Shown piece by piece: positions 1,628 through 24,620 of a stretch of DNA of 56,573 nucleotides. Position 1 is the first letter of the stretch. Every line of letters begins with the position of its first letter. The notes under the pieces are model-generated. The model was not told the origin of the DNA and did not search any database. It saw nothing but the letters and a program-made list of their open reading frames with translations. The stretch comes from an uncultured Oscillospiraceae bacterium (GTDB taxonomy: Bacteria; Bacillota; Clostridia; Oscillospirales; Oscillospiraceae). A program made the position numbers and the translations under genes. The stretch covers positions 1-56,573 of the forward strand of contig CAKUDE010000012.1 of assembly GCA_934645175.1 (NCBI GenBank). Direction: 5' to 3'.

Positions 1628-2236
1628 ATGGCAAACAAGGATTATTCCCTTGACAGCGGCATCATCAATGCCGCGTATGACGAGTTCCTTTCCTGCGGCT
1701 TTCAGAAAGCATCGCTTCATAAAATAGCCCAAAAAGCCGGCGTTACCACCGGAGCGATTTACAGGCGATATAAAAACAAGGATGCGCTCTTTGCAAGCCT
1801 TTTGCAGGATTTTTTTGCGGTGATGGAGGAAGCGTTTTCCCCGGCGGCGGAGGAATATGACCGGGCGAAGGAAAGCGGTCGGGTGGAGGATATTATACGC
1901 GCCATCCGGGCTGAGGAGAATATCTATTTTTGCCTTCTGACCGAGCACTACGACGAATGCACCCTGTTTTTCAGCCGCAGCGACGGCAGCTCTGTGGAAG
2001 AAATTCGCAAGGAGCTTATGGATCGAAAAACAAAACAGACCGTCGAGTTTTTCTCCGCCGTCTATGGAAAAACGCCCAACGAGGATGCGATCCGCCTGCT
2101 GATGGGGTCGCAGTTCTGGTATTTCAGACAGCTTCTCAATGAGCACATGGAAGAGAAGAAAATGCTCGCCTGCCTTCGGTCGATTTTGGATTTCTTCAAT
2201 GCCGGGTGGCAGCAATTATGCGGCTCGCTGAACTGA
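1628..2236 (+). CDS. TetR/AcrR-family transcriptional regulator
   Basis: The 202-residue protein has a classical TetR N-terminal DNA-binding domain (about residues 10-57, with the recognition part GVTTGAIYRRYKNKDALF) and an all-helical ligand-binding C-terminal domain with no recognisable ligand signature. Translation starts at ATG 1628 behind AGGGGGTG. It has its own promoter, with a palindrome over the start of transcription, which fits an autorepressor. It precedes the transporter genes on the same strand by about 90 bases and most likely controls them. The inducer is unknown. Confidence 0.9.
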   Translation: MANKDYSLDSGIINAAYDEFLSCGFQKASLHKIAQKAGVTTGAIYRRYKNKDALFASLLQDFFAVMEEAFSPAAEEYDRAKESGRVEDIIRAIRAEENIYFCLLTEHYDECTLFFSRSDGSSVEEIRKELMDRKTKQTVEFFSAVYGKTPNEDAIRLLMGSQFWYFRQLLNEHMEEKKMLACLRSILDFFNAGWQQLCGSLN

Positions 2237-2251
2237 ATAATTCGGAATACT

Positions 2252-2303
2252 CGGGCGGTGCTCCCGCCCGCTTCTTACGCCACGTGGTTAGGCTATGCTA
2301 ACC
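2252..2303. promoter_or_regulatory. Two inverted repeats in the leader of the transporter genes
   Basis: CGGGCGG (2252-2258) pairs with CCGCCCG (2264-2270), and GGTTAG (2286-2291) pairs with CTAACC (2298-2303). The first could attenuate read-through from tetR, although no T run follows. The second could be a protein-binding site or a leader stem just ahead of the ribosome binding site. No separate promoter is obvious in the gap. Confidence 0.35.
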
Positions 2304-2322
2304 GAAAAGAAAAGAGAGAACC

Positions 2323-4485
2323 ATGATAGATTTTGAATTTGAGTTTCAATACGCAGAGGAAAAAGCTCCGGCGCTTCGGCAGACCGCCGGCAGTATTCCG
2401 GGTGGGCGCTGTGTGGTGCTGTGCGGAGGCAGCGGATGCGGAAAATCTACGCTGCTCAGGTGCATCAACGGACTGATTCCGCAGTTTTACGAGGGAGAGC
2501 TGAAAGGCTATTGCTGCCTTGCGGATAAGAATACAGACGGACTCGGCATTGGTGAGATCGGCGAGCTTGCAGCATCGGTCTTTCAGGATCCGCGCAGCCA
2601 GTTTTTCACCGTGAACAGCTCAAATGAAGTGGCGTTCGGGCTTGAAAATCACGGTCTGCCGCAGGAGGATATCCGCCAGCGGGTAGATGAGGCGTTCCGG
2701 GTGTTCCATCTGGAGCGGCTGAAGGACCGCAACGTCTATGAGCTGTCCAGTGGCGAGCGGCAGCTCATCTCCATACTCTCGGCATGGGCAATGGACACAG
2801 ATATTTTTCTCCTTGACGAGCCGACGGCCAACCTCGACTTTGCAGCCACCCAGCAGTTGAGGGAGATCCTGCTGGCGCTCAAGCAACAGGGAAAGACGCT
2901 GCTGCTCAGTGAGCATCGGCTCTATTATCTTACAGATATTGCCAATGAATATTGGGTCATGGCAGACGGCGAGATCAAAGGAAAATACACTGCCGCAGAG
3001 GCAAAGGCGCTCTCGACGGAGCAGAGACAAGCACTTTCTCTGCGCACGCTCGACCTTGCGGAGATCACAGTGCCGGAGAAAGAGCCGCTGCCGAAAACCG
3101 CGCCGACGGTGCTTGACGTCTCAGATGTCCGCTATACATACGGCAGGAAGGCTGGAGATACCCTCTCCGGTGTCAGCTTTTCCGTCCGGGAGCATGAGAT
3201 CGTCGGTCTTGTGGGGGCCAACGGCTGCGGCAAAACGACGATCGGCAAGCTGATCGCAGGGCTTTACCGCCCATCCGGCGGAAAAATCTCGCTTTTCGGA
3301 AAGCCGCAAAATCCAAAGCAACTGCAAAAGCGGGTGCTGTTCATCCTACAGGAAGCGGAGTTTCAGTTCTTCACCAACTCCGTTCTGCACGAACTTCAAT
3401 ACGGCCATGCGGTGACACCGGAGTTTGAAGCGAAAACGGAAGCGCTTCTCAAAAGCATGGATATGTGGGACTGCCGCGACCGGCATCCCTTCTCCCTCTC
3501 CGGCGGACAGATGCAGCGTCTGACACTGATGATGGCGTATCTCTCCGATAAGCCAATCGTCATACTGGACGAGCCGACAGCAGGACAGGACGCGGAAAGT
3601 CTGGAGCGGTGCGCGAAACTGATCCGCGAGATGCGAAAGGAAAAGACCGTCCTCATCATTACACATGACCTTGAGCTGATTGCAGATGCCTGCGACCGCT
3701 GCATTGGGCTGTCGGGCGAGCGCGCGGAAACAGAATTCCCCATTCATTCGGAACGAGATTTGCAAGCAGTACGGCAATATATGGATCGCTTCCATCCATC
3801 CGATGTTCCGGTGAAAAAACAGCATCAAGAACGATTCCACCCGGTGACGAAGCTGCTTTACTGGCTGGCTCTGCTGGTCGTGATCTCCACGTCCAACAAC
3901 CACTTAGTTTATGCCGCATATGCGGCACTGATCCTGCTGACCGCAGCTGACGGCTGGTTCGGAACGGCGCTGGCAGGCGGGATGAGCTTTGGAGTACTGT
4001 GGGCAGCCGACGCTCTGCTGCCGGGCACGGTGTTCTCCTTCATGCTGGTGCTGTTTCCGCGGATCATCGCCATCGGCATCTCCATGCGGACGCTTATCGG
4101 GCGCAACGAAGCAAGCCGAACGCTGGCGGCTCTGCGCAATATGCACCTGCCGGAGCGACTTATTATGATTGTCGCCGTGATCTTCCGCTTCTTCCCGGTG
4201 CTGTCCGGCGATATGAAGCTGCTGCGGCAATCCATCCGCACGCGCGGCGCGTTTGTAACGCCGTGGCAGAAGCTGCGTGCGCTGCCGTCCTATATTGAGA
4301 TACTGACGGTTCCTATGGCGCTGCGCGTCATCCGCATTGCGGAAACGCTTTCTGCCTCCGCCGAAACGCGGGGCATTGACCTACGGCTGCGAAAGAGCAA
4401 TTATCTTTCGCTCCGTTTCTCGGCGTGGGATGTTGTGTTCTGCGCCCTGTTGGCGGCATCAATCGCCGCCGGTCTTATTTTGTGA
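2323..4485 (+). CDS. Energy-coupling factor transporter, fused EcfA-EcfA'-EcfT
   Basis: The 720-residue protein combines both ATPases and the membrane coupler of an ECF-type importer. The first ATPase has Walker A GGSGCGKST (35-43), signature LSSGERQ (141-147) and FLLDEP (162-167). The second has GANGCGKTT (298-306), LSGGQMQR (392-399) and VILDEP (413-418). From about residue 505 there are several membrane helices and the EcfT coupling motifs RTRGA and AETRGI. In most ECF systems these are three polypeptides. The S-component gene follows 54 bases downstream. The substrate cannot be read from this subunit. Confidence 0.93.
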   Translation: MIDFEFEFQYAEEKAPALRQTAGSIPGGRCVVLCGGSGCGKSTLLRCINGLIPQFYEGELKGYCCLADKNTDGLGIGEIGELAASVFQDPRSQFFTVNSSNEVAFGLENHGLPQEDIRQRVDEAFRVFHLERLKDRNVYELSSGERQLISILSAWAMDTDIFLLDEPTANLDFAATQQLREILLALKQQGKTLLLSEHRLYYLTDIANEYWVMADGEIKGKYTAAEAKALSTEQRQALSLRTLDLAEITVPEKEPLPKTAPTVLDVSDVRYTYGRKAGDTLSGVSFSVREHEIVGLVGANGCGKTTIGKLIAGLYRPSGGKISLFGKPQNPKQLQKRVLFILQEAEFQFFTNSVLHELQYGHAVTPEFEAKTEALLKSMDMWDCRDRHPFSLSGGQMQRLTLMMAYLSDKPIVILDEPTAGQDAESLERCAKLIREMRKEKTVLIITHDLELIADACDRCIGLSGERAETEFPIHSERDLQAVRQYMDRFHPSDVPVKKQHQERFHPVTKLLYWLALLVVISTSNNHLVYAAYAALILLTAADGWFGTALAGGMSFGVLWAADALLPGTVFSFMLVLFPRIIAIGISMRTLIGRNEASRTLAALRNMHLPERLIMIVAVIFRFFPVLSGDMKLLRQSIRTRGAFVTPWQKLRALPSYIEILTVPMALRVIRIAETLSASAETRGIDLRLRKSNYLSLRFSAWDVVFCALLAASIAAGLIL

Positions 4486-4539
4486 CAGCTGTTCCGGGCG
4501 GCTTTCAAATACAAATACATATCAAAGGAGTTTTTACCT

Positions 4540-5115
4540 ATGAAAACAGCAAGCACAAACAAACTGAAAATCAAGGACATCATTACCGTTGTCCTGCTGG
4601 CGCTGATCAATGTCGTGATCTTCTTTGCAAGCTCACTTTTGTATGCAACGCCGATTACGATCATTCTGATGCCCGTGTTCTTCGCCCTGCTGGAAGGCGT
4701 AGTGTACTTTATCATCGGTGCAAAGGTGAAAAAGCCCGGCGCAATCCTGATCTACAGCATTGTCCGCGCCATTATGGGCGGTTATCTGCCGTATATCATC
4801 CTGTTTATCCTTTCCGGCGTCATCGCAGAGCTGTTGCTGTGGAAGATCGGCTACGGAAACGGGAAAGCGTTGACCGTCAGCTACATTATCAATCAGGTGC
4901 TTGCTGCCTTCGGAAGCACGGTGATTCCTTATGGTATTGCCGCAAAAGCAATGGCGGATCAGATGGTCACAGACGGTCGTCAGGACAATATCCTGAAGGC
5001 TTCTGAAATTCTTCAGTCGTGGTGGTCGGTCGCTCTGGTTGCAGGCGTGATCGTTGCCGCTTTTATCGGCGCAATGATCGGCAAGCGAATCGTAAAGAAG
5101 CATCTGACAGCGTAA
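4540..5115 (+). CDS. ECF transporter substrate-binding (S) component, MptD/Trep_Strep type
   Basis: The 191-residue protein is very hydrophobic, with about five to six membrane helices and a short cytoplasmic start (KTASTNKLKIKDIITVVLLA). Size, topology and its place directly after the fused AAT protein fit the S component that captures the substrate. The overall pattern resembles the MptD-like putative S components annotated in Firmicutes. ATG 4540 follows AAAGGAG. The ligand is unknown; the ABC exporter pair behind it suggests a shared small molecule. Confidence 0.75.
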   Translation: MKTASTNKLKIKDIITVVLLALINVVIFFASSLLYATPITIILMPVFFALLEGVVYFIIGAKVKKPGAILIYSIVRAIMGGYLPYIILFILSGVIAELLLWKIGYGNGKALTVSYIINQVLAAFGSTVIPYGIAAKAMADQMVTDGRQDNILKASEILQSWWSVALVAGVIVAAFIGAMIGKRIVKKHLTA

Positions 5116-5134
5116 TATGGCGGAGGAATTATCG

Positions 5135-6895
5135 ATGAACAAAACCCCGAAACCACAGCGCTCCGCCTCCTCGTGGCTTTTAGAGCTTGCGGAGGGTCGG
5201 CGGGGCGAATATGCCTTGAGCATTTTTACGGCGCTGCTGGGCGTTGCCTGCTCCCTTGTGCCGTATTTTATCATGATTCAAATCATTACCGCGCTTGTAA
5301 ACGGCACGGCAAAGCTGTCACAGTGCCTGTCGCTTTGCGCATGGATGGCAGGCTGCTGGGTGCTGCGCTATATTCTGCACAGCATTTCTACCTCACTTTC
5401 GCACCATGCAACCTTCCATGTGCTTGCCAATACCCGCACAAGACTGCTGGATAAGCTGGCGACACTGCCGCTGGGCACGGTGCTTGACCGTTCCTCCGGC
5501 TCATATAAGAACATTATCGTGGAACGGGTCGATTCCATCGAAACGACCCTTGCCCACCTGCTGCCGGAAATGACGACCAACATCGTCGGCGCGCTGGCGG
5601 TGTTTGTACTGCTGTTTGTAAACGACTGGCGCATGGGGCTTTCCATGCTGATTGTCGTTCCGCTCGGCATTCTCTGCTTTATGTCGATGTTCAGCGGCTA
5701 CAACGAGAAATTTCAGCGTACCGTCACCTCAACAAAGGCGCTCAACGACACTGCCGTGGAGTACATCAGCGGCATCGAGGTTATCAAGGCGTTCGGTCAG
5801 TCAAAAACCAGCTATGCAAGGTTTGTTTCCGCCGCTAAGGAGGGAGCCGACTGCTTCATCGAATGGATGCGCGGCAGTCTGTTTGGCCAGGTCTCGGGAA
5901 TGGCAGTTCTTCCGTCGACGCTTCTCGGCATCCTACCGGTAGGCTGCCTGCTTTATAAGCACGGCACGCTGTCTGCGGAGACCTTCCTCACGGTCATTGT
6001 CCTGTCCTTCGGCGTCATGCAGCCGCTGATTACCGCTTTTTCCTACACCGACGACATCGCGCAGGTAACGACCATCGTCGGCGAGGTGGCGAATGTGCTT
6101 TCCGGCGAGGATATGCAGCGCCCGGAAAAAGCGGAAAAACTGCCGGCCGATAACTCCATTGAATTGAAGAACGTCCGCTTTGCCTACCATGACAAAGAAG
6201 TGCTGCACGGCGTCAGCTTACGCATTGAGCCCGGCACGGTCAATGCCCTTGTCGGCCCCTCCGGCAGCGGCAAATCCACGATTGCCCGCCTGATCGCCTC
6301 CCTTTGGGATGTAAAGGACGGTGCGATTGAGCTCGGCGGCGTGGACATTCGCACCCTGCCGCTCAAGAACTGCACGGACCGCATCGCCTATGTGTCGCAG
6401 GACAACTACCTTTTTGACCTCTCCGTTATGGACAACATCCGCATGGGCAATAAAGACGCAAGTGACGATGAGGTCGTTGCCGCAGCGAAGAAATGCGGCT
6501 GCCACGAGTTTATCTTGGGGCTGGAAAACGGCTATCAGACGATATGCGGCGCTTCCGGCGGGCATCTTTCCGGCGGTGAGCGGCAGCGCATCTCTATTGC
6601 ACGCGCCATGTTGAAGGATGCGCCTGTTGTCATTTTGGACGAGGCGACCTCGTATACCGACCCGGAAAACGAAGCGGTCATTCAGTCCGCCCTTGCGCAT
6701 CTGGTGCAGGGCAAGACGCTGCTGGTCATCGCACACCGGCTTTCCACCATTGCAGACGCCGATCAGATTATCGTTGTCAATCAGGGGCAGATCGAGGCTA
6801 CCGGCACGCAGGCGGAGCTTCTTGCCTCCTGCCCGTTGTATAAAACTATGTGGGATGCCCATATCAGCGTAAAGGACGATGGGGAGGTGGCATAA
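5135..6895 (+). CDS. ABC transporter half-molecule, permease fused to ATPase (first of pair)
   Basis: About 586 residues: an exporter-type membrane domain of six helices (about residues 25-310) and an ATPase domain with GPSGSGKST, LSGGERQRIS and VVILDEATS. ATG 5135 is chosen because GGAGGA lies 7-8 bases ahead; an in-frame ATG at 5117 has no such site. The stop shares one base with the next start (TAATG), so the two half-transporters are probably made together as a heterodimer. Pairs of this kind next to ECF genes resemble siderophore-type YbtP/YbtQ or IrtA/IrtB importers, but export is equally possible from sequence. Confidence 0.88.
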   Translation: MNKTPKPQRSASSWLLELAEGRRGEYALSIFTALLGVACSLVPYFIMIQIITALVNGTAKLSQCLSLCAWMAGCWVLRYILHSISTSLSHHATFHVLANTRTRLLDKLATLPLGTVLDRSSGSYKNIIVERVDSIETTLAHLLPEMTTNIVGALAVFVLLFVNDWRMGLSMLIVVPLGILCFMSMFSGYNEKFQRTVTSTKALNDTAVEYISGIEVIKAFGQSKTSYARFVSAAKEGADCFIEWMRGSLFGQVSGMAVLPSTLLGILPVGCLLYKHGTLSAETFLTVIVLSFGVMQPLITAFSYTDDIAQVTTIVGEVANVLSGEDMQRPEKAEKLPADNSIELKNVRFAYHDKEVLHGVSLRIEPGTVNALVGPSGSGKSTIARLIASLWDVKDGAIELGGVDIRTLPLKNCTDRIAYVSQDNYLFDLSVMDNIRMGNKDASDDEVVAAAKKCGCHEFILGLENGYQTICGASGGHLSGGERQRISIARAMLKDAPVVILDEATSYTDPENEAVIQSALAHLVQGKTLLVIAHRLSTIADADQIIVVNQGQIEATGTQAELLASCPLYKTMWDAHISVKDDGEVA

Positions 6896-8628
6896 TGTTT
6901 AAGACTCTGAAAAAATTCTTTGCCTTCTGCGGCAGGGAAAACCGAAAAATGTTTGTTGCGTCCATCTGGCTCGGGGTTATCAGCGCAATCTGCTCCGCCA
7001 TGCGCATTCCCGCCGCCGCCGTTGTCATTCGGGCGCTGCTGAAAAAGAATGTCACCATGACGACCCTCTGGGTAAGCCTCGGCGTTATCGTGATCTCGTT
7101 GGTCATTACCATCGTCATCAATATGAAGTCTACCATGCTCCAGACCAGGGCGGGGTATCGCGCCTGCGCGAACAAGCGTATCGAGATCGCCGAGCATCTG
7201 CGCTATTTGCCCATGGGCTGGTTCAATGACAACAGCCTTGGCGAGGTGGCAAGCGTAACCACAAACACCATGGAGAATATGGCGAATGTGGCGACCCGCG
7301 TCGTGATGGTCACGACACGCGGTTTCCTGACCTCCGGCATCATTGCGGTCATGATGTTCCTGTTTGACTGGCGTATGGGGCTCATTACCCTTGCAGGACT
7401 GATCGTGTTCTTTGCCGTCAATGCCGCCATGCAGCGCGCAGAGCAGGCGTTGGCGCAGCGGAAATTCAATGCCGACGAACGGCTTGTATCCAAGGTGTTG
7501 GAATATGTGCAGGGCATTGCCGAGGTCAAGAATTTCGATCTGACTCACGACTCTGCAACGCAGGTGCACGGTGCTGTGGAGGAGGCGCGCAAGGCGTCGT
7601 TTGCCATGGAGCTTCCGTCGGTTCTTTATATGCTGGCGCAGTTCATCGTTAATAAACTGACGGGCGTCGCCGTCTGCGCTGCCGCCATCGTTTTCTGTTT
7701 CGGCGGCACGATGGAACTGACGAACTGTCTGCTGATGATGATCTGCTCCTTCATTCTCTTTGAGCAGCTCGACAGTGCCGGAAGCTTTTCCTCCCTGTTC
7801 CGCTCCATCGACATCGGCGTGGACAAAGCCAATTCCATCCTGAGTGTAGAACCAATGGATATTGACGGCGAGGAGCTGACACCGGAGCGGGAGGACATTG
7901 TTCTGTCTCATGTGGATTTCTCCTACGACAGCAAGCCCATTTTGCATGACGTATCCCTGACTATTCCGGAGAAGACCACCGTCGCCATCGTCGGTCCGTC
8001 CGGCTCCGGCAAAACCACGCTCTGCAATCTGATGGCGCGGTTCTGGGATGTGCAGGGCGGCAGTGTGAGTCTCGGCGGACATGATGTAAGAGAATACAGC
8101 TATGACAGCCTGATCCGCAACTTTTCCTTTGTGTTCCAGAGAACCTATCTGTTCTCTGACACGATAGCAAATAATATCCGCTTCGGCAAGCCGGATGCCA
8201 CGCTTGAAGAGGTGAAAGCCGCTGCAAAGAAAGCACGCTGCTACGACTTCATCATGGCTATGCCGGACGGCTTTGACACCGTCATCGGCGAGGGCGGCGC
8301 GACACTTTCCGGCGGCGAACGCCAGCGCATTTCCATCGCACGGGCCATTATGAAGGACGCACCTATCATCATTCTCGACGAGGCGACGGCGAATGTCGAT
8401 CCGGAAAACGAAAGGGAACTGATGGAAGCCGTTTCCGAGCTGACGCACAATAAGACGGTCATCATGATCGCCCACCGGCTCAAAACGGTACGGAATGCCG
8501 ATCGGATTTTCGTTGTCGATCACGGCGAGATCGTTCAGCAGGGGACGCATGACGAGCTGGTTGCCGTGGACGGACTCTATCGCCGATTTGTGGTTGAGCG
8601 TAAGCAGGCTGCAGGGTGGAGGGTTTGA
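6895..8628 (+). CDS. ABC transporter half-molecule, permease fused to ATPase (second of pair)
   Basis: About 577 residues with an exporter-type membrane domain (roughly residues 15-290) and an ATPase with GPSGSGKTT, LSGGERQRIS and IIILDEATA. ATG 6895 lies behind GGGAGG and overlaps the stop of the partner by one base. In both ATPases the signature motif and the Glu after Walker B appear intact, so there is no sign of one degenerate site. It is the last gene of the cassette and is followed by a strong hairpin. Confidence 0.88.
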   Translation: MFKTLKKFFAFCGRENRKMFVASIWLGVISAICSAMRIPAAAVVIRALLKKNVTMTTLWVSLGVIVISLVITIVINMKSTMLQTRAGYRACANKRIEIAEHLRYLPMGWFNDNSLGEVASVTTNTMENMANVATRVVMVTTRGFLTSGIIAVMMFLFDWRMGLITLAGLIVFFAVNAAMQRAEQALAQRKFNADERLVSKVLEYVQGIAEVKNFDLTHDSATQVHGAVEEARKASFAMELPSVLYMLAQFIVNKLTGVAVCAAAIVFCFGGTMELTNCLLMMICSFILFEQLDSAGSFSSLFRSIDIGVDKANSILSVEPMDIDGEELTPEREDIVLSHVDFSYDSKPILHDVSLTIPEKTTVAIVGPSGSGKTTLCNLMARFWDVQGGSVSLGGHDVREYSYDSLIRNFSFVFQRTYLFSDTIANNIRFGKPDATLEEVKAAAKKARCYDFIMAMPDGFDTVIGEGGATLSGGERQRISIARAIMKDAPIIILDEATANVDPENERELMEAVSELTHNKTVIMIAHRLKTVRNADRIFVVDHGEIVQQGTHDELVAVDGLYRRFVVERKQAAGWRV

Positions 8629-8656
8629 AGCAACGCAGTCTAAAAACACGAAGAGA

Positions 8657-8693
8657 AGAAGCCCGTATCAGCCATTGGCCGATACGGGCTTCT
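8657..8693 (+). terminator. Terminator hairpin after the transporter cassette
   Basis: A perfect 13-bp stem (AGAAGCCCGTATC at 8657-8669 with its complement at 8681-8693) and an 11-base loop lie 30 bases after the last ABC gene. The following bases are TCTGTTG rather than a long T run, so release efficiency is uncertain. Confidence 0.7.
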
Positions 8694-9034
8694 CTGTTGA
8701 TGAAATAGTCGCAGCATTCTCCGCCGCTAGCCGGCGCCTGTTTTCTGTGCAGCAGGGGGTCATCACCTCGTCCGGCTCGCAGAACAGCGGCATCAGCTCG
8801 GAACCGTTTGTATGAGTACAGCTCAAGCAGCGGGTAATTCATTCCTCTTATCAGTTGTTCGTACTTGTTATTTCAAACCGCAGGAAGTCGAGACCGTCGA
8901 GTTGTTCCTGTTTTACGTGAATTTCATCGTGTTTGTCCTGTCTCCGGGAATTTTGCGGGCGCTAAAGCAGGCGTCCGCGCATAAGCAGCAGGAAAGATGA
9001 GGAAACTAAGGGTATTGAAGGAGGGCGGTTCTAT
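8694..9034. other. Gene-poor spacer in the mobile region
   Basis: No convincing gene is seen. Short open frames occur on both strands. One on the plus strand (8812-9000) ends with a hydrophobic segment FLFYVNFIVFVLSPGILRAL but has no ribosome binding site. These may be remnants of former element genes. Confidence 0.4.
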
Positions 9035-9298
9035 TTGGAGATGAACGTCAGGGACGATAAGAAGCTTGTTGAAATCTGGCTGACGAATGCAGAAAAAAAT
9101 GACCCCATTCTGCGGGAGGGGCTGAAGGAGATTTACGCAAAATATAAGACGAAAAAATACATGGTTGCCGTGTTTGAGTCCGGCAAGGGTGACCTTTATG
9201 AGAATACGCGCGATCTGCTGCTGTTTAACCGACGACGCAGCGCGGAAAAGGCTGTGCAGCAGGCGAAAAAACGGCGGGAAATTGGTATGGAGTGCTGA
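9035..9298 (+). CDS. Small conserved-looking protein of mobile elements
   Basis: The 87-residue charged, helical protein begins at TTG 9035, about nine bases after GGAGG; an in-frame ATG follows two codons later. The sequence (KKLVEIWLTNAEKNDPILRE, then YKTKKYMVAVFESG) matches my memory of small hypothetical proteins that precede recombinases in gut clostridial elements, but I cannot name a function. There is no membrane segment, signal peptide or cysteine cluster. It lies 160 bases ahead of the recombinase unit. Confidence 0.6.
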   Translation: MEMNVRDDKKLVEIWLTNAEKNDPILREGLKEIYAKYKTKKYMVAVFESGKGDLYENTRDLLLFNRRRSAEKAVQQAKKRREIGMEC

Positions 9299-9346
9299 GC
9301 GTTGGGCGGAAGGGAGAGATCCTATCTGCCTGTTTTTCTTTTCCTC

Positions 9347-9375
9347 TTGAAAATTTCAAAAAGATCGTATACAAT
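9347..9375 (+). promoter_or_regulatory. Sigma-A-like promoter of the recombinase unit
   Basis: TTGAAA (9347-9352), a 17-base spacer and TACAAT (9370-9375) lie about 85 bases upstream of the 53-residue ORF. The form is vegetative rather than sporulation-sigma-like. Confidence 0.65.
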
Positions 9376-9459
9376 GTTATCTGAATATAAAATCAGAAGT
9401 TAAGACAACAAGGAGCCACGTGCCCGTGTGCTCTATGGCAGAGATGAAGGAGCGTATAA

Positions 9460-9621
9460 ATGGAAAATGGAATTACGGATCGCGGCGAAATTCTGCCACG
9501 AACACGTATCGGCAAGGTCGGCGCGGTTTACGACGAGTCCCGCAAAAGGCAGGATGCGGCGTGTGTCTCCGAGTCTGACCGGGAGACAGAAAAATATCTG
9601 AAAGGCGATGAGCTGCATTGA
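9460..9621 (+). CDS. Small protein translationally coupled to the serine recombinase
   Basis: A 53-codon frame starts at ATG 9460 behind AAGGAG and ends in a TGA that overlaps the TTG start of the recombinase (TTGA). The product (starting MENGITDRGEILPRTRIGKV) is rich in charged residues, with no known domain. The tight overlap suggests that its translation feeds ribosomes onto the recombinase start, which has only a weak site of its own. It could be a directionality or accessory factor, but that is a guess from position only. Confidence 0.6.
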   Translation: MENGITDRGEILPRTRIGKVGAVYDESRKRQDAACVSESDRETEKYLKGDELH

Positions 9622-11783
9622 TCGAACGCTTTGACATCGCGGGCTATGCCCGCATTTCCGTGGATGATGAGCAGGATCAGAAGAACATCTCGATCGAGAA
9701 CCAGAAGGCCATCATTGAGGACTATGTGAAAACTCACTTCCCCGGCAGTACGCTGACATTTTTTGAAGACCGCGACCGCTCCGGCTACACATTTGAGCAG
9801 CGCGAAAGGTACCAGGAGATGCGCCGGGGGCTGATGAGCCACAAATATGACATTCTTATCATCAAGGACTTTTCCCGATTCTCCCGCCGTAACAGCCGTG
9901 GGCTCGTGGAGCTGGAGGACCTGCGCGACGCAGGCGTCCGGATCGTTTCCATTGGCGACGGAGTGGACTTCCCCAACGATAACGATTGGCTGAAAATCCA
10001 ATTCCAGTTTCTTGTAAACGAAATGCCTGTCACGGACACCTCCCGCAAGGTGCGCAATGTCATTAAGCGGCGGCAGAACGACGGCGAGTGGATCTGTGCC
10101 GCGCCCTACGGTTATCTTGTGACCGAAGATAAGCGCTTTGAAATCATCCCGACGGAAGCCGAGACAGTCCGAAAGATTTTTGACCTCTACGGCAACGCCG
10201 GTTGGGGCTATCAGAAAATCGCCAACTACCTCACCGATCAGGGCATTCCCACGCCGCGTATGTCCGAGCGGATGCGCAAGGAAGCGGCGGGCAAGAAAAC
10301 GAAACGGGAAGCAAAAAACGCATGGGCCATCGCCACGGTGCAGGGTATTCTGGACAACGATTTCTATATCGGCACGCTCCGGCAGGGCAAGTATACCCGC
10401 GCCAAGATCAATGGTAAGGAGATCAAACGTAATGACGATGAGCACATCGTCATCGAAAACCACCATCAGGCCGTCATCGATTACCGCACCTTCGCCGTCA
10501 CCATCGCTCTGCGTGAAAAGCGTAGCTGCAACAACTATCGCGGCGTGAAGATCAACGATAATGTGTACTCCGGCTTTTTGCAGTGCGGCGACTGCGGAGG
10601 TCCCATGTTTGCCATGAGCCGCAGCGACCTGGCTCCCGCCTATACCTGCGGCACCTATCACCGGCGCGGCCTCAAGGGCTGCACCAGCCATCATATTCGC
10701 GTTGACCGGCTGGATGAACTGCTGAAAAGCTATGTGCGGAAGCTGGCGGACAGCTCTGCCGCCATGCTGAAGCAGCTCAACGAGGAGCTGAAGCGGGAGA
10801 CCGAGCAGGTGGTGGAAACGGAGCAGTCTGCCGATCATCTGGCGGCGGTGCTGGCCGATCTTACCGAGGAGCTGAAGGTTACGAAGCGCCAGCGTATCCG
10901 GGAGATTATGAAAAAGCCCGATCAGGAAACCGCCATCGAGGCGCTTTACGACGAGATGGAAGCAGACCTGCAAAAGAAGATCGACGGCCTCAACCACCAG
11001 ATCGACCTGCTGTCTGATAAGCGCAACACCATCATTCGGGTCAATCGTGTGGCCCAAACCGCCATTGACGTATTCCGCGACATTCTGGGAAAGGACAAGC
11101 TGGAACGGAATGACCTGGAGCTGCTGATTGATAAAATTCTCGTCTTTGAAGATCACTTGGAGATTAAGCTGAAATCCGATATCGACACACTGCTGCGCTG
11201 CGGAGCTCTCCCTGCGGAAACGGAGGATGCTGCAAATTTTAACCAAGGCACGGAAAATATCGAAGATATGCTGGTTCAGTCCTCCAAAAACCGGGAGGAC
11301 AAGGTTTTCCGTGTCAATGTTATCAGAGAGGGCGAGCCGTTGGAGATATTTACGGAGCGGGACGGAGAAGTCATCTTCAAGAAGTATTCCCCGGTAGGGG
11401 ATCTGCAGGAATTTGCGGCGCAGCTTTGCGATTCCATCGGGAAGAACACCGGCCATATTGCAGCCGTTTGTGACCGCGACAGCATCATTGCCGTTGCCGG
11501 CGCACCCAAGCGGGAGCTGCTGGAGAAGCGGAATTCCACCGAGCTGGAGCAGCTCATGGAGCAGCGCAAGAGTTATCGCTACCGCTCCGGCGACGCGCGC
11601 CTGCGCGTGGCGGAGACCGTGGAGCGCTATCATCTCGGAGTGGCCGCGCCGATCATTGCCGAGGGGGATCTGATGGGCTGCGTCATGCTGCTGATGAATG
11701 AAAATGATCCCGCGCTGAGCGAATCGGAACAGAAGCTTGCCCAAACGGTTGCAGGCTTTCTCGGCAAACAGATGGAAAACTGA
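9618..11783 (+). CDS. Large serine recombinase fused in frame to the C-terminal part of SpoVT
   Basis: This is a 721-residue frame. Residues about 7-150 are the resolvase catalytic domain, with GYARISVDD (Ser14 as nucleophile) and the conserved KDFSRFSRRNSRG. A recombinase domain and a zinc ribbon with CGDCGG and a later CGT/GC pair (about 318-360) follow, then a long coiled coil (about 370-480). From about residue 568 the protein reads IREGEPLEIFTERDGEVIFK and continues to the stop as the SpoVT GAF-like domain (see the separate entry). Recombinases of this type normally end near residue 550. The TTG start at 9618 overlaps the preceding small ORF. The fusion most likely records integration of the element into spoVT. 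Confidence 0.92.
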   Translation: MIERFDIAGYARISVDDEQDQKNISIENQKAIIEDYVKTHFPGSTLTFFEDRDRSGYTFEQRERYQEMRRGLMSHKYDILIIKDFSRFSRRNSRGLVELEDLRDAGVRIVSIGDGVDFPNDNDWLKIQFQFLVNEMPVTDTSRKVRNVIKRRQNDGEWICAAPYGYLVTEDKRFEIIPTEAETVRKIFDLYGNAGWGYQKIANYLTDQGIPTPRMSERMRKEAAGKKTKREAKNAWAIATVQGILDNDFYIGTLRQGKYTRAKINGKEIKRNDDEHIVIENHHQAVIDYRTFAVTIALREKRSCNNYRGVKINDNVYSGFLQCGDCGGPMFAMSRSDLAPAYTCGTYHRRGLKGCTSHHIRVDRLDELLKSYVRKLADSSAAMLKQLNEELKRETEQVVETEQSADHLAAVLADLTEELKVTKRQRIREIMKKPDQETAIEALYDEMEADLQKKIDGLNHQIDLLSDKRNTIIRVNRVAQTAIDVFRDILGKDKLERNDLELLIDKILVFEDHLEIKLKSDIDTLLRCGALPAETEDAANFNQGTENIEDMLVQSSKNREDKVFRVNVIREGEPLEIFTERDGEVIFKKYSPVGDLQEFAAQLCDSIGKNTGHIAAVCDRDSIIAVAGAPKRELLEKRNSTELEQLMEQRKSYRYRSGDARLRVAETVERYHLGVAAPIIAEGDLMGCVMLLMNENDPALSESEQKLAQTVAGFLGKQMEN
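11322..11783 (+). pseudogene. spoVT: 3' part of spoVT, separated from its AbrB-type N-terminus
   Basis: The 154 codons correspond closely to residues from about 31 of the 178-residue Bacillus SpoVT: REG-PLEIF, the DGEVI-KKYSP hinge, CDRDSIIAVAG, LEQLMEQR, the GD-GCVML strand and a terminal helix ending in FLGKQMEN. The N-terminal swapped-hairpin DNA-binding part (the typical DLGRVVIPKEIRRT segment) is missing, and recombinase sequence precedes instead. On its own this piece cannot bind DNA like SpoVT. The missing 5' part is not in the window; if the element is a clean insertion, it should lie upstream of position 1. Confidence 0.85.
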
Positions 11784-11843
11784 GGTCGCGCGCATAAAAA
11801 CGGCCGCGCCTCCGGAGGTGCGACGCTCCGGCAGTTATGTAGC

Positions 11844-11889
11844 AATACCCCCCGGTGCGGCTTTCGATCCGGCATCGGAGGGTATTTTC
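11844..11889 (+). terminator. Terminator after the spoVT 3' part
   Basis: An AATACCC...GGGTATT stem of about 15 bp (one mismatch and one wobble), extended by an inner CGG/CCG pair, is followed by TTTT. It was probably the native spoVT terminator. Confidence 0.75.
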
Positions 11890-11916
11890 TGTAGATCGGG
11901 CGCGGACGGCGATTGC

Positions 11917-12453
11917 TTAGTCAAACAGGAAGCAGCCGGTATAGGTAATGGTGTTCGGCCCGTAGTAATAGGGCAGGTCGTTTTTTTGGCAGACTTCCAG
12001 CACGAGCATCCCGTAAGCCTCCATGGATGAGACCATCAGACGCGGGAAACGGCAGGGTGCATCCGGATAGGTGCAGAGTTTGCAGCGGGTACAGGAACCG
12101 GCGCCCAGCGCCAGAAGGCGCGCGAGGCGCGGCTCGAGCAGCTTGTGCATGGCGTCGAAATGTTCTTTATGTTGCTTCTGTGCCTCTTCAATGCCCTCAA
12201 TGTCGAAGCTGTCCTCTAACTGTCCCGTCGTTTGCACCAGGATCCCGTGTGCAAAGCCCTTCAAATGCTCGCGACATTCGTCAAGCGTTCCGCAGGCGGG
12301 CGGGCAGCTCCAGCATTTGCCGTAGCGTCCGCAGGAATTTCCGTTGCACATGGCGCGAACTTCGTCCTTCAGCTCAATGGTCGCCGGGTCGAGCGGACCG
12401 GCATGTGAAAATCCAAGCTCCTTTGCGAGCGTCAGCATTTCTTCCGGGTTCAT
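11917..12453 (-). CDS. DUF2284 predicted metal-binding protein
   Basis: The 178-residue soluble protein has two cysteine clusters: CGRYGKCWSCPPACG near residue 41 and CTRCKLCTYPDAPCRFP near residue 120. Together they could ligate an iron-sulfur or other metal centre. This pattern is typical of DUF2284 proteins, often found beside corrinoid methyltransferase genes. Its start overlaps the stop of the RACE gene by four bases (ATGA), so it is the last gene of the minus-strand corrinoid operon. A redox or maturation role for corrinoid activation is inferred from context only. Confidence 0.88.
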   Translation of the reverse strand: MNPEEMLTLAKELGFSHAGPLDPATIELKDEVRAMCNGNSCGRYGKCWSCPPACGTLDECREHLKGFAHGILVQTTGQLEDSFDIEGIEEAQKQHKEHFDAMHKLLEPRLARLLALGAGSCTRCKLCTYPDAPCRFPRLMVSSMEAYGMLVLEVCQKNDLPYYYGPNTITYTGCFLFD

Positions 12454-13904
12454 TCTTCATCCTCCTCAAAGCTGAGTGCATCTACGAAGCGATCCTGAAA
12501 ATCCGGTCGCGATGCAAGCTCCAGAAATTCCGTCTGTGCGGCAAGCGTTTTACTGCGCTCAAATTCCGTGCGGCTGAGCGCGCAGCGCCTGGCGCCGTCG
12601 CCCGCGGCATTGCCGATGCCGACGATCTTTGGCAGAAGCTCCGGCGGGATCATTCCGATGCGGCAGGCGGAGACGGGATTCAGATAGTTTCCGAAAGCGC
12701 CGGCAAGGCAGACACGCCGGATATCGTCCGTTTTTATGCGTAATTGGCTGCAAAGCAGCTCGATGCCGGCGCGGACGGCGGCCTTGGCGAGCTGCACCTC
12801 GCGCACATCTTGTTGCGTCAGTGTCAGCTTGGTTCCGGGCAGACGGTATTCGCCGCCGGAAAGACGGCCGGAAGGGTCAAGCACTCCCAACTCCAGCAGT
12901 GCGGCAATCAGGTCAAGCAGACCGGAGCCGCAGATGCCGACGGCGGGAATGTCCTGCAGTACATGCAGATGCAGTGCGCCGTTTTCCACCCACGCATGGT
13001 CGATCGCGCCGGCTGCGCCGCGCATTCCGCAGGAGATCTTCGCGCCTTCAAAGGCGGGCCCGGCGGCGGTGGAGCAGGCGATGCGGTGCGTGCCGTCTCC
13101 GAGCACCATTTCGCCGTTCGTGCCGATGTCGATCAGCAGCGTCAGTTCGCGAAGCGTGTCGAACCGCGTTGCGACGAGACAGCCGACGGTGTCTGCACCG
13201 ACAAAGCCCGCAATATTCGGCAGCACACGCAGCGTGGCTTCCGGCGAAACGGGAAGCCATGGGCAGCCGTGCCGCTCCGTTGCTTCGCGGTACGCGGGCA
13301 TATAGGGCGGCGTGACGAGCGGCCGGACGTCCAGCCCCAGAAGCAGGTGGTGCATGGCCGTGTTGCCGACCGCACAGACAAGCGTGACCTCCGTGCTGTC
13401 GATACCGGCTTTTTGCGCCGTTTCGACGGTCAGCGCGCAGAGCGCAGAGCGGATGCAGTCGGTAAGCGCGTCTTTGTCCTGCTCCAGTGCATACTGAATG
13501 CGCGAAATGACGTCCGCACCGAACTGTGCCTGCGGATTCAGACAGCTCGCCTGTGCGAGCTGAACCCCCGTGTGTCCGTCCATCAGAGCGGCCACGACGG
13601 TCGTTGTTCCGATGTCAAAGGCGAGCACATAGCGGTTTGTGCCGTCGCAGGGGAGAGGCGCAGCATCTGCTGCAAGAATATGATAGTCCTGCGCCTGCGG
13701 CAGCCGTACGGTGATATCTCCGGTCAATGTGTAGCGGCAGGCAAGCTGCGGCTCACCGTTCACCAGCACGCGGCACTTGCCGCATTTTCCCTGTCCGCCG
13801 CAGGGAGCATCGAGAAAGAACCCTGCCTGCGTCAGCGCCTGAAGCAGATCAAGGCCCTCCGGGGCGTCGAAGCCGCCGTGTTCCTCCAGACGAATATGGA
13901 TCAT
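12450..13904 (-). CDS. Reductive activator of corrinoid enzymes (RACE; ferredoxin plus ASKHA ATPase)
   Basis: About 484 residues. The N-terminal [2Fe-2S] domain has Cys35, Cys41, Cys44 and Cys56 (C-x5-C-x2-C-x11-C). The rest is an ASKHA-type ATPase with phosphate loops LAFDIGTTTVVAAL and LLIDIGTNGEM and the adenosine-site LAGAFGNYL. This is the DUF4445/RamA-like architecture that returns inactive Co(II) corrinoid to Co(I) using ATP. ATG 13904 is preferred over an upstream ATG because AGGAGGT lies five bases before it. It activates, by inference, the corrinoid protein encoded just upstream. Confidence 0.92.
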   Translation of the reverse strand: MIHIRLEEHGGFDAPEGLDLLQALTQAGFFLDAPCGGQGKCGKCRVLVNGEPQLACRYTLTGDITVRLPQAQDYHILAADAAPLPCDGTNRYVLAFDIGTTTVVAALMDGHTGVQLAQASCLNPQAQFGADVISRIQYALEQDKDALTDCIRSALCALTVETAQKAGIDSTEVTLVCAVGNTAMHHLLLGLDVRPLVTPPYMPAYREATERHGCPWLPVSPEATLRVLPNIAGFVGADTVGCLVATRFDTLRELTLLIDIGTNGEMVLGDGTHRIACSTAAGPAFEGAKISCGMRGAAGAIDHAWVENGALHLHVLQDIPAVGICGSGLLDLIAALLELGVLDPSGRLSGGEYRLPGTKLTLTQQDVREVQLAKAAVRAGIELLCSQLRIKTDDIRRVCLAGAFGNYLNPVSACRIGMIPPELLPKIVGIGNAAGDGARRCALSRTEFERSKTLAAQTEFLELASRPDFQDRFVDALSFEEDEE

Positions 13905-13924
13905 AAGACCTCCTGAAAACAAAT

Positions 13925-13989
13925 GCACGGGCGGAAAGCCCGTGCCTGTATCGTTGACGCGGCGGCGGTGAGGCTAAGACCGCCGCCGC
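13925..13989 (-). terminator. Two hairpins between the corrinoid-protein and RACE genes
   Basis: GCGGCGGCGGT (13959-13969) pairs perfectly with 13979-13989, and GCACGGGC (13925-13932) pairs perfectly with 13938-13945. On the minus strand the second stem is followed by ATTTGTTTTC and then the RACE ribosome binding site. They look like a partial terminator or processing stems that lower expression of the catalytic activator relative to the corrinoid protein. Confidence 0.6.
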
Positions 13990-14052
13990 GCCGTTGTGGA
14001 GCTGAGCCGGGGAAGAAAGGTAAAAAACCCCGGGCTCATGGATGCTTGTGGG

Positions 14053-14706
14053 TTAGTCCTCGCGCGCCATACGCTCCATGGCCAAAGCCTTGGCGGCCTG
14101 GCTTGCGGAGGCGGCGTCGGTGGTATAGATGTCCGCACCGATTTCGTCACAGAATTCCTGCGAAATGGGTGCGCCGCCGACCATGATCTTGAAATCCTTA
14201 CGGCGCGGGCTCTTATTGAGCGCGGCAACGATCTCACGCATGGCGGGCATGGTGGTGGTCAGCAGGGCGCTGACGCCGACGACGGAGACCTCGGGGTCCT
14301 CGGCGGCTTCGACGAACTTCTGAACGGGCACGTCAATGCCGAGGTCAACGACCTCGTAGCCGGTGGATTCGATCATCATGACGACGAGGTTCTTGCCGAT
14401 GTCGTGCAGATCGCCGTACACGGTGCCCATGACCATCTTGCCGATCTTGCCGCTGTTTTCGCCGCCGAGATGGGGCTTGAGGGTTTCAACGCCCTTCTTC
14501 ATGGCGCGGGCTGCGACAAGCATTTCGGGAACGAAGATCTCGTTGCGCTTGAACTTTTCGCCAACCTCGCCCATGGCGTCGATCATGCCCTTGTTCAGAA
14601 TGTCGATGGGGGCGACGCCCTCATCGAGGCACTCCTGCACCAGACCGGGCACAAGCTTGGATTTGCCGTTCGCAACGGCGGTTGCCAGTTCCTGTAATTT
14701 AGACAT
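14053..14706 (-). CDS. Corrinoid (B12-binding) protein, MtaC/MtbC-like
   Basis: The 217-residue two-domain methyl carrier has an N-terminal helical cap (about 1-88) and a Rossmann-like cobalamin domain with GDLHDIGKN, in which His101 is the lower cobalt ligand, followed by VGVSALLTTT and MVGGAPIS. ATG 14706 is chosen because it lies behind AAGGAGG; the frame upstream is not protein-like. It sits between the methyltransferase and activator genes and is the methyl-carrying hub of this system. The methyl donor is not identifiable from this protein. Confidence 0.93.
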   Translation of the reverse strand: MSKLQELATAVANGKSKLVPGLVQECLDEGVAPIDILNKGMIDAMGEVGEKFKRNEIFVPEMLVAARAMKKGVETLKPHLGGENSGKIGKMVMGTVYGDLHDIGKNLVVMMIESTGYEVVDLGIDVPVQKFVEAAEDPEVSVVGVSALLTTTMPAMREIVAALNKSPRRKDFKIMVGGAPISQEFCDEIGADIYTTDAASASQAAKALAMERMARED

Positions 14707-14822
14707 TTGTTTTTCCTCCTTATGTGTGTTCAAACGGCGGAAATTTCCGGAAGCCCGCCGCAGATTCCCAAGTGCTATGCGTAGTGACTTATGTGTAATG
14801 TGTAATCCTGAAAGGGGTTCGG

Positions 14823-15632
14823 TCAATTCTTAACCGGCCCGAAGATGCCCTCGCGGTAAGCGCCGATATATTCCATGCAGTAGTCGTCCTGGCCGAGCAG
14901 CGCCTCGGTGGCATAAATGAGCCCGATCATGTCGCGGTTGGTCGGATCGAGGATGGCGCTGTCGAGACCGGCGTTCATTGCCAGCACGGTGAAGCCGAGA
15001 TTCAGCAGCTTGCGCACGGGCAGATTAAAGGAGATGTTACTCACCGCTGCGGTGATGTGGATGGTGGGGTACTTGGCACGGACGGTGGAAATGACTTCCG
15101 TATTCGTCTCGATGCCGTTTTCTGAGGTGCAGAGCATTTCAACCAGCGGATCGATATGGATGCGGTTCGGTGCGATGCCGTATTCTTTTGCCTTAGCCAT
15201 GATCTTGTCAAAGACCTTCAGACGGTCGGCGGCATTCTTGGGGATGCCGGTGTCGTCGCTGAGCAGAGCAATGACCTGCCAACCGGGGTTCTGCGCCATG
15301 ATGGGGAAAATGACGTCCAGCTTGTTGCCCTCACCGGAGACGGAGTTGAACAGGCCGGGCTTATTGCAGAACTTGTAGGCTTCGGTCAGAACCTTTACGC
15401 TGGGGCTGTCGACGGAAATGGGCAGATCGCTGACGGACTGGATACAGTCGATCATCCAGTGCAGCGTTTCCACCTCTTCGGCCTCCGGCACGGAGGCGCA
15501 GCAGTCAAGGAAAGTGGCGCCGGCGTTCGTCTGGGCGATGGCGCGCTGCTTGATGAATTCCGCATCGCGTCTGGCAATGGCGTCCGCTACGGCGGGAATG
15601 GAGCCGTTAATTTTTTCACCGATGATAATCAT
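14823..15632 (-). CDS. Methyltetrahydrofolate:corrinoid methyltransferase (pterin-binding TIM barrel)
   Basis: The 269-residue AcsE/MtvC-like enzyme has IGEKINGS at the N-terminus, FLDCCAS, SVDSPS, FNSVSGE, DDTGIP, HIDPLVE and AVSNISF, the expected run of barrel-end motifs for the DHPS-like pterin-binding family. It moves the methyl group between the corrinoid protein and tetrahydrofolate in the cytoplasm. It lies 32 bases after the regulator gene and 116 bases before the corrinoid-protein gene. That gap (14707-14822) holds only the ribosome binding site and no recognised feature. Confidence 0.93.
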   Translation of the reverse strand: MIIIGEKINGSIPAVADAIARRDAEFIKQRAIAQTNAGATFLDCCASVPEAEEVETLHWMIDCIQSVSDLPISVDSPSVKVLTEAYKFCNKPGLFNSVSGEGNKLDVIFPIMAQNPGWQVIALLSDDTGIPKNAADRLKVFDKIMAKAKEYGIAPNRIHIDPLVEMLCTSENGIETNTEVISTVRAKYPTIHITAAVSNISFNLPVRKLLNLGFTVLAMNAGLDSAILDPTNRDMIGLIYATEALLGQDDYCMEYIGAYREGIFGPVKN

Positions 15633-15664
15633 AAAAAAGCCTCCTGATTCTGTATAAAGGATGA

Positions 15665-17248
15665 TTATTCTGCGGGATTGTGGGTGCTTTGCTTTGCAAG
15701 TATTTCTTCAACGGGTTTGAGCCGCAGTAAATCCACAAAGGAATAGGACATCAGCATGAACAGCCGCACGTTCGGGTCGCTCAGATCCGCACCGATGAGC
15801 TGGTCAATTTTTTCCAGCCGCTGGTAAAATGTGTTGCGGTGGATGAAGAGCTGCTTGGCGGTTGCCGTCGCGTTCAGACCGCTGGTCAGATATTCCTGAA
15901 GCGTGGCAAGCAGCTCGGTGCCGTTCGCTCTGTCGTATTGGTACAGCCTCACAAGGCCGGGATGACAAAGATGGCGGCCATTGATCCGGCTGGTGCCATA
16001 GTGCATGAAATAGGGCAGGACATAGTCCTCAAACTTGTAGCACCAGAGATCCGGTGCATACAGATGCCCCATCTCCAGGGCCGCGGCAGCCTGCTTATAG
16101 TAGGAAACGACGGTACTGAAATCGAAGAAAACGTAGCTGATGCCGACGCGAAGCAGATGCTCGCGGAGAAACAGCGTCAATCGCTGTACAAGCGTTTCAC
16201 GCGGAAGCGGAGATTTGTCCAGATTGAACAGTGCGATGATGTGGTCGTCGTGCAGGAAAGCAAAGCTTTGGGAAAAACGGCTCTCAATGTCCGTACACAC
16301 GCTGTGATATACCGAGCTGGCCCGATCCCATCGGTTGATTTCAAAGGCGGCGCAAAGGTAGTGCTCATTATTGAGCCAGCGCATGGAAAGCAGATACTGC
16401 TCCACAACCGCCTGTTCGATCTGTTCGTTTGACAGCAGCTTCTTGACAAACTCCTCAAATCGCAGATTGTGTCCGGAATGGAAGTTTGACTTGCTCAGAA
16501 TGTTGTGAATACCGTGAGCCAGGTATTGCAGTGCATCGTCCGTCAGAGTGCGCAGCGGAGCGGTCAGCTCCGGTACGGCGACGGTGAAAATGGTATTGCT
16601 GCGATTAAAGTGCAGAAAGCGCACGTTATGCGGCAGGTATTCCTCGCTGATGAGAAAGCTGCGGCCAAATTCACCACGCGAGGAGCGCGCACGGATCAAT
16701 TCGATGATCTCCGGCGGGAGCATCCGCTCCTGTGTGCGCGGGTGTAGCGCCCATTCGATGCCGACCGGGAAATCGCACTTGCTCAGGAGACAGAAGTTGC
16801 GGTCAAAGACCAGCACGGGATTGCCGAAGAAATCTTCGCCCAGCGCTATGATCTCCTGAAGCGAGGGGGGCTTTGCCAGCGTCTCGCTCAGCCGCTGCGC
16901 CCAGTTTTGGTAGCTTACGAAAAGCTGGGAAATACGGTTAAAGATCGCATTAAATGGGGGACGCTTTGACGCCGTTTCCAGCACGAGCGCGTCAACTCCG
17001 AGCGACCGCAGCAACGTGTCATCCGTCTGACCGACAACGATCAAACTACTGCGCGGCGGGCAACGAAAGCCCTCGCCAAGCTGTGCGGCAGGCAACACAT
17101 AGCACAGCTCCTCATGCATCGGTTCGTCTTTGGCCCAAAGAGCCGGCGCGCGAAGGTGCGCCTGACGGGCGGAAAAATCATTCGATGCAATGATATGTGC
17201 GCTCTGCATATCCAGCGCGCGGCAAATCGATTCCAAGCTCAGCTCCAT
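15665..17248 (-). CDS. PucR-family transcriptional regulator
   Basis: The 527-residue protein has an N-terminal sensing domain, a middle GGDEF-like CdaR region, and a C-terminal PucR helix-turn-helix (YLTSGLNATATAKQLFIHRN, then TFYQRLEKIDQLIG). ATG 17248 is preferred to an upstream ATG because GGAGG lies seven bases before it. It is the first gene of the corrinoid operon. PucR/CdaR-type regulators are often activators that respond to a small substrate, so this protein probably senses the methyl donor or a product. A palindrome upstream of its promoter is a candidate binding site. Confidence 0.9.
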   Translation of the reverse strand: MELSLESICRALDMQSAHIIASNDFSARQAHLRAPALWAKDEPMHEELCYVLPAAQLGEGFRCPPRSSLIVVGQTDDTLLRSLGVDALVLETASKRPPFNAIFNRISQLFVSYQNWAQRLSETLAKPPSLQEIIALGEDFFGNPVLVFDRNFCLLSKCDFPVGIEWALHPRTQERMLPPEIIELIRARSSRGEFGRSFLISEEYLPHNVRFLHFNRSNTIFTVAVPELTAPLRTLTDDALQYLAHGIHNILSKSNFHSGHNLRFEEFVKKLLSNEQIEQAVVEQYLLSMRWLNNEHYLCAAFEINRWDRASSVYHSVCTDIESRFSQSFAFLHDDHIIALFNLDKSPLPRETLVQRLTLFLREHLLRVGISYVFFDFSTVVSYYKQAAAALEMGHLYAPDLWCYKFEDYVLPYFMHYGTSRINGRHLCHPGLVRLYQYDRANGTELLATLQEYLTSGLNATATAKQLFIHRNTFYQRLEKIDQLIGADLSDPNVRLFMLMSYSFVDLLRLKPVEEILAKQSTHNPAE

Positions 17249-21481: not shown

Positions 21482-21518
21482 CACAGAAAATGACTATTGA
21501 CACAAGTCATTTTCTGTG
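21482..21518. promoter_or_regulatory. Perfect 14-bp inverted repeat over the pilin promoter
   Basis: CACAGAAAATGACT (21482-21495) and its exact complement (21505-21518) flank a 9-base centre that contains the -35 hexamer. As DNA it is a strong operator candidate. As RNA it would not be transcribed, because it lies upstream of the start, so a terminator role is unlikely. Confidence 0.7.
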
Positions 21519-21525
21519 CTATAGT
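21497..21525 (+). promoter_or_regulatory. Consensus sigma-A promoter of the pilin-like gene
   Basis: TTGACA (21497-21502), a 17-base spacer and TATAGT (21520-21525) lie within the inverted repeat, so occupation of the repeat would block RNA polymerase. Confidence 0.8.
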
Positions 21526-21610
21526 AGGTTTACAAACGCTGAACGGCATAACGCAGGGTTTCTCCGGCGCCGCCGGTGAAATACATATTCTACCAAAGGA
21601 GAGTTCCGAA

Positions 21611-24462: not shown

Positions 24463-24548
24463 GATATTTCTCCTTTTAAATTTCATCATTCGCGCCAATG
24501 GGCGCAGGTTGGGGGAGGAGCAGCAGGATGTGTGCGCGAAACCGTACA

Positions 24549-24588: not shown

Positions 24589-24620
24589 TACTGCTCCATA
24601 TGAGCTTTTAAAAGGAAATA

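Follow-up and report, generated by a model that had tools for sequence, protein, structure and literature searches.

How does a gene for a large serine recombinase come to end in the C-terminal part of a sporulation regulator? The locus that raises this question lies in an uncultured Oscillospiraceae bacterium, in a stretch of 56,573 nucleotides that was analysed as a whole and that we call the window. Comparison with related loci suggests that the fused gene is very probably the right junction (attR) of an integrative element in the host gene spoVT, and that insertion of this element exchanges the tails of the two genes. The position and orientation of the insertion, the reciprocal exchange, the several changes of state on the host-gene tree and the selection on the exchanged tail are all apparent in the sequences of relatives, and we infer that the window's own left end resembles theirs.

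The fused gene and its surroundings

The fused gene (9618..11783, forward strand) is a single frame of 721 codons that opens with TTG and has no stop inside. Pfam places a Resolvase domain at residues 7-158, a Recombinase domain at 178-301 and a zinc ribbon at 317-374, the combination within one protein that marks a large serine recombinase, and SpoVT_C at residues 595-720 with an E value of 1.6e-42. The NCBIfam model spore_V_T aligns residues 565-720 with its positions 23-180 of 180 and scores 161 bits against a cut-off of 236 bits, presumably because the N-terminus is absent from the fused protein; residues 564-720 likewise align with chain residues 23-177 of SpoVT in PDB 2w1t. These matches bear out what the earlier note had read from the window alone, namely that a recombinase runs in frame into the C-terminal part of SpoVT and that this part, whose spore_V_T match begins at model position 23, lacks its DNA-binding N-terminus. 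The structure model of the fusion is poor (mean pLDDT 54), with values of mostly 80-90 in the SpoVT part. From the same matches, and from the conservation of roughly the first 560 residues among relatives, we assign codons 1-572 (9618..11333, forward strand) to the element as the integrase body and 11336..11783 (forward strand), which holds the GAF-type SpoVT_C domain and the stop codon, to the host as the probable 3' part of spoVT.

Upstream of the integrase, a sigma-A-like promoter match (TTGAAA, spacer 17, TACAAT) lies at 9347..9375 on the forward strand, and the region 8600-12000 holds four sigma-A-like sites on both strands against 2.0 in shuffles. The vegetative promoter that the earlier note had seen here stands as a consensus match, which alone is no proof of use. 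A frame of 53 amino acids (9460..9621, forward strand) overlaps the integrase start and by its translation looks like an internally deleted RhuM-family gene; its end resembles by eye that of a longer frame before the integrase in locus L081, and the corresponding frame in L083 is a RhuM gene by Pfam. Further upstream, an element frame of 87 amino acids (9035..9298, forward strand), without a Pfam or NCBIfam match, has a near-identical counterpart in L081 as judged by eye. A TetR-like regulator, ECF-type transporter genes and two ABC half-transporters, all identified by Pfam (1628..8628, forward strand), are assigned to the element as its likely cargo because the window contains no 5' part of spoVT. 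The first gene of the host flank beyond attR encodes a DUF2284 protein (11917..12453, reverse strand).

In the relatives the cargo includes an Mrr-type nuclease, AbiEi-like and RhuM genes, DUF4143 ATPases and other ABC transporters; the integrase and the ends are common to the elements examined, and the cargo varies. No relaxase was recognised among the profiled genes of the window or the ten profiled genes of L083, L087, L088 and L089, and a MobV-like frame was seen in L081 by eye only. Elsewhere in the window, a frame at 55275-56465 (reverse strand) resembles what we take to be a mutator-type (IS256-like) transposase, and two frames, at 21497-22078 (forward strand) and 22447-24624 (reverse strand), carry FTIVELVIVI, presumably a pilin-like N-terminal motif; the second of these is joined to a long further domain.

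Relatives of the fused protein

A search of 5.8 billion proteins, which yielded at least 8000 candidates, found SpoVT_C in all 120 of the best-listed relatives of the window protein, and a second search, from L082, itself 47% identical to the window protein, again had it in 120 of 120; each list holds the best 120 only, ranked against a fused query that favours fused proteins, so that a non-fused branch could rank lower. Between the window protein and its own 120 best relatives, residues 1-560 are 78-94% identical and the remainder 46-86%, and the two values do not keep step: P0098 is 92% identical in the integrase and 46% in the SpoVT part, and P0099 78% and 86%, respectively. A scan of genomes, one per species, gave 167 related loci, and among the best 80 of these 79 continue through SpoVT_C, the remaining one being cut by a contig end. 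The frame is thus open across the junction in the window and in 79 of 80 loci, and the gene is not broken by integration as that of a suicidal integrase is. Record titles place the carriers among the best 80 mostly in Clostridia, Oscillospiraceae included; animal guts are the source of many, and some are isolates, the cultured commensals Agathobaculum butyriciproducens DSM 100391, Butyricicoccus pullicaecorum DSM 23266 and Flintibacter muris DSM 110149 among them. Some fused proteins (P0101, P0182, P0207 and P0231) bear the database name 'stage V sporulation protein T', under which a split spoVT may be scored in surveys as a gene that is present.

In a tree of the C-terminal part of SpoVT (111 sequences, 84 fused and 27 whole), the fused label needs 16 changes, seven of them forced by well-supported branches; the tree is built from few columns and the changes may be gains or losses. 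The C-terminal part in the window is nearest by path to those of L001 (87% identity) and L003. At the DNA level, the window matches these two loci only in the integrase gene and the SpoVT part (76-77%) and in one short stretch before them (72%), which suggests a similar host gene occupied by different elements in all three. The flanks of L001 and L003 past attR align in pieces only, at 69-77%, and a shared ancestral insertion is therefore not supported there.

spoVT is split in the genomes of relatives

The other part of spoVT was sought in 30 genomes chosen from the best 80 loci, mostly drafts and MAGs, and the gene is split in every one, with no full-length copy found in any. The 5' part, which comprises the first 33 to 40 residues, was found 6.8-38 kb upstream in 17 of the 30, sharing contig and strand with the 3' part; the two parts are on different contigs in nine, and a clear 5' part was not found in three. 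One genome (G008, loci L085/L086) has the reversed order, in that the 3' part comes first and the 5' part follows it on that strand after about 18.5 kb, and in G007 (L093) the first eight to ten SpoVT residues are unrecognisable. On two contigs near chromosome size, of 2.9 Mb (G155) and 4.3 Mb (G106), the parts keep the usual order and are separated by about 16 and 40 kb. Both parts of the gene therefore flank an element in order, as an intervening element requires, in 17 of the 30 relatives and in G155 and G106; the window shows the 3' part only. A tblastn search of the window with B. subtilis SpoVT found no 5' part elsewhere, and the left end of the element should hence lie upstream of position 1.

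How common the split is was counted by hand in an even sample of 150 genomes from a single host family. In 94 of them spoVT is complete or almost so; these include one matched over 1-124 only, one with an internal stop and six matched from residue 7-15 on; 22 have the 3' part only, 14 an N-terminal match only (mostly AbrB-like, that of G176 resembling a spoVT 5' part) and 20 neither. No full copy appears beside a 3'-only part in any of the 22 among the rows listed, and a frame of 718-818 amino acids holds the 3' part in 20 of them. The contig of G146 starts inside an integrase whose end joins the 3' part in frame, and in G170 (L143) spoVT is split with its 3' part joined to no integrase. In G108 (L131), an intact spoVT beginning at about 3488 is preceded by two attL-like scars (308-607 and 2566-2772), each a 5' part with a tail, which look as if elements had come and gone.

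These findings bear directly on a different reading, in which a recombinase family captured SpoVT_C once, as a sensor, and the gene contains no junction at all. The presence of the domain in every best-listed relative of both queries is what such a stable fusion would give. It would not give SpoVT identities that are independent of integrase identities, a complementary 5' part of spoVT at the opposite end of the element, 30 genomes without a full-length spoVT or at least seven forced changes of state on the tree. We consider it highly improbable, and on the decoupled identities, the split gene in 30 of 30 genomes and the tree changes we reject as a main reading what the earlier note had kept as its alternative.

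Attachment sites and exchange of tails

An attP site was reconstructed for 17 genomes by joining the P arm of the right end to the sequence that follows the core at the left end. The resulting dyad is centred on GA, with 69% of arm positions matching against 9-45% at 24 other centres, and GA is for this reason the likely crossover dinucleotide. In the window the probable core lies at 11334..11335 (forward strand), the first two bases of codon 573, and the putative P arm of attR at 11310..11333 (forward strand) within the integrase gene, as judged by its dyad with the left-end P' arm in relatives. Aligned on the junction codon, all 93 attR rows, from 82 distinct loci, have GA here and show P arm, GA and SpoVT codons in turn. 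The corresponding integration site in spoVT would be codon 32, with the GA of GAC as core. The earlier note had located the fusion point at about residue 568 and had proposed that relatives would define a 2-bp core; a fusion point does exist and is better placed at codon 573, and the comparison did yield a probable core, through the attP dyad, with symmetry in attB only slight (39.5% at the core against 37.6% at the next-best centre).

At the left end of the element, spoVT codon 33 is followed by 24-28 further codons and a stop, the commonest form of this tail being ..W-E-x-F-C-F-G-M-L-D-L-A-K-R-x-G-W. When the ends were joined by script, all 16 circles gave an integrase that continues in frame into the tail, and all 16 empty sites gave a frame that passes through the junction into SpoVT, with the first ten SpoVT residues unrecognisable in L093 (G007). 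Together with the upstream 5' parts and the lack of any full copy, the latter result upholds what the earlier note had offered as the simplest explanation, integration into spoVT with the recombinase gene crossing the right junction. Neither a complete second spoVT without a 5' fragment nor the fused protein at a locus other than spoVT, either of which that note had said would speak against it, was found in the relatives examined.

Tail codons 9-22 lie beyond most of the P' arm, and pooled, non-independent pairs from 16 left ends give them a pN/pS of 0.31 in the integrase frame; in the remaining frames the values are 1.22 and 1.24. The low value in this one frame marks the tail as a selected peptide. 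When the element is integrated, its coding sequence is at the far end, away from the integrase body. The likeliest user is the free integrase; the alternative is the truncated SpoVT, which carries the tail in the integrated state. As the integrase gene extends 24-28 codons past attP, integration swaps tails: the integrase drops its own short tail and acquires the GAF-type domain of SpoVT, and the beginning of spoVT, which encodes some 33 residues of the DNA-binding domain of AbrB type, acquires the integrase tail and then stops. The fusion in the window appears from these comparisons as one half of a reciprocal exchange, whose other half the earlier reading, made from the window alone, could not show.

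Free forms were sought in several collections. Strict attP patterns had no match in viral_contigs or in any of 400 genomes, and this absence is weak evidence because the pattern used on the 400 fits just 9 of 16 inferred attP sites and would miss seven. No relative was confirmed as a free circular form in viral_contigs, and no plasmid record covered 80% or more of the query. Among phage records, one contig stops within the gene and one fused relative is complete, at 47%; identity is below 29% in the rest of those listed. The lack of a free circle counts against the simple picture of the element, as do the reversed order in G008, the 3' part in G170 that no integrase adjoins and the slight symmetry of attB.

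A second copy of the left half of attB occurs in 10 of 17 element left ends (L083, L084, L085, L087, L089, L090, L091, L097, L098 and L100), fixed at +104 or +105, about 105 bases past spoVT codon 33; it matches at 14-16 of 18 positions, where single-base shuffles reach at most 13.

Discussion

spoVT is a sigma-G, forespore gene whose product acts in the forespore, and the forespore genome is the germ line. By established knowledge the target is thus not a mother-cell gene, the usual though not strictly defining target of intervening elements. By a hand count, the sigma G gene is full-length in 34 of 40 genomes with a split spoVT and in 32 of 40 with an intact one, and so splitting of spoVT does not accompany loss of this gene. 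Among the fused proteins, SpoVT_C has a dN/dS of 0.04-0.16 in several close pairs (such as L001/L003, L063/L067 and L026/L033), where dS is comparable to that in the integrase, and of up to 0.83 in the other listed pairs, mostly more distant; the ratio cannot separate change before insertion from change after. The low values would fit continued function, and the divergence may predate insertion.

Against this background the fate of the inserted element can be weighed. An element that sits in spoVT and no longer excises, in a host that lives without SpoVT, would make the fusion a passive result of the position of attP, and this accords with the fact that split genomes showed neither a free nor an empty form and that the fused frame arises automatically once attP and attB share phase. 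PMC5061766 also describes a severe sporulation defect on loss of SpoVT in B. cereus and none such in B. subtilis. We nevertheless think permanent trapping rather less likely than not, given that the sigma G gene is full-length equally often in split and intact hosts, that the tail is under selection and that SpoVT_C has low dN/dS in close pairs, although divergence before insertion could give the same values.

A skin-like programme, with excision of the element in the course of sporulation and timely restoration of SpoVT, is a candidate that we think somewhat less likely than not. Excision in the forespore would lose the element from the germ line unless the circle were kept or reinserted, the integrase is preceded by a promoter match of sigma-A type, and no recombination directionality factor came to light in analyses made for other ends; for such a programme speak the open frames on either side of the element, the retention of sigma G in split hosts and the precedents in other sporulation genes, for several of which passages of PMC6957869, PMC5595907 and PMC10747680 report that excision rebuilds the gene. 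Conditional excision that restores spoVT, together with two integrase forms that differ in activity or direction, is our own guess, to which we give slightly less than an even chance. In its most specific version, an integration-state switch, the free element would make the integrase with its own tail for insertion and the inserted element only the integrase with the ligand-sensing GAF-type domain of SpoVT, so that excision would be gated by a host signal of spore development and, in a forespore gene, would touch the germ line; this full chain we regard as unlikely. The truncated SpoVT N-terminus with its tail may be a second regulator.

The gene for the forespore sigma factor, sigG, itself appears split at about residue 91-97. 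Among the rows listed for 80 genomes, seven show only the part from residue 88-93 on, and in G139 both parts are present about 25 kb apart; the loci are L107 3471-5758 (G015), L109 (G145), L103 and L104 (G139), L105 (G079), L106 (G034) and L111 (G150). A serine recombinase gene lies directly upstream of the sigG 3' part in five of eight split cases and about 3.1 kb upstream in G139; G010 has none within 5.6 kb, and a contig end cuts the locus in G068. sigG may thus be a second forespore target. By eye, the G139 element (L103, about 3800-16000) appears to contain a repeat array alongside CRISPR-Cas genes.

The spoVT element has a forespore regulator as its target, and its recombinase gene itself crosses the junction; it is like skin in sigK, SP-beta in spsM, gin in gerE and yin in yabG in being a serine-recombinase element that splits a sporulation gene, and like the skin type in that the rejoined flanks restore the frame. 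The targets of reported intervening elements, as set out in parts of PMC6957869, are in contrast almost all mother-cell genes, the reason given being that the mother cell dies and the spore keeps the element. Phages with integration-dependent immunity (BPs and others), as described in sections of PMC9262239, likewise have attP inside a gene of the regulatory module, whose C-terminus integration alters; there, however, a repressor loses its 3' end through a tyrosine integrase acting at a tRNA attB, whereas here the integrase would gain a host sensor domain. The archaeal suicidal integrases of SSV type also have attP within the integrase's own gene, and differ in being tyrosine integrases that are cut in two and are stated in part of PMC8371274 to be archaea-only; the integrase described here is bacterial and of the serine type, keeps its catalytic and DNA-binding parts and would change its tail only. 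Engineered fusions of a serine integrase with its directionality factor, outlined in PMC5737554, are a further case of a domain joined to such an enzyme, artificial where the present one is natural, and it is a guess that SpoVT_C acts like the directionality factor in them.

The titles and abstract openings of the literature searched contained no report of an element inserted in spoVT, and the word 'spoVT' is absent from the main text of PMC5595907, PMC10747680 and PMC6957869. In a survey of serine recombinases and their target genes (PMC10083194), the main text is without 'spoV' and 'sporulation' occurs in the reference list only. Nor did the literature searched yield any serine integrase of bacteria whose working domains are retained while a sensor domain of the host replaces its tail.

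Our comparisons suggest a model in which an element of gut bacteria inserts in the middle of spoVT, and its integrase would then differ between the free and the inserted state. If this is right, a common element family, given that 22 of 150 genomes in one host family have the 3' part of spoVT only, attacks a forespore regulator, which would run against the stated pattern of intervening elements in mother-cell genes. There is also a practical warning, in that database naming may hide a split spoVT in gene surveys. For the family itself, the finding would mean a natural serine integrase whose C-terminus reports its integration state.
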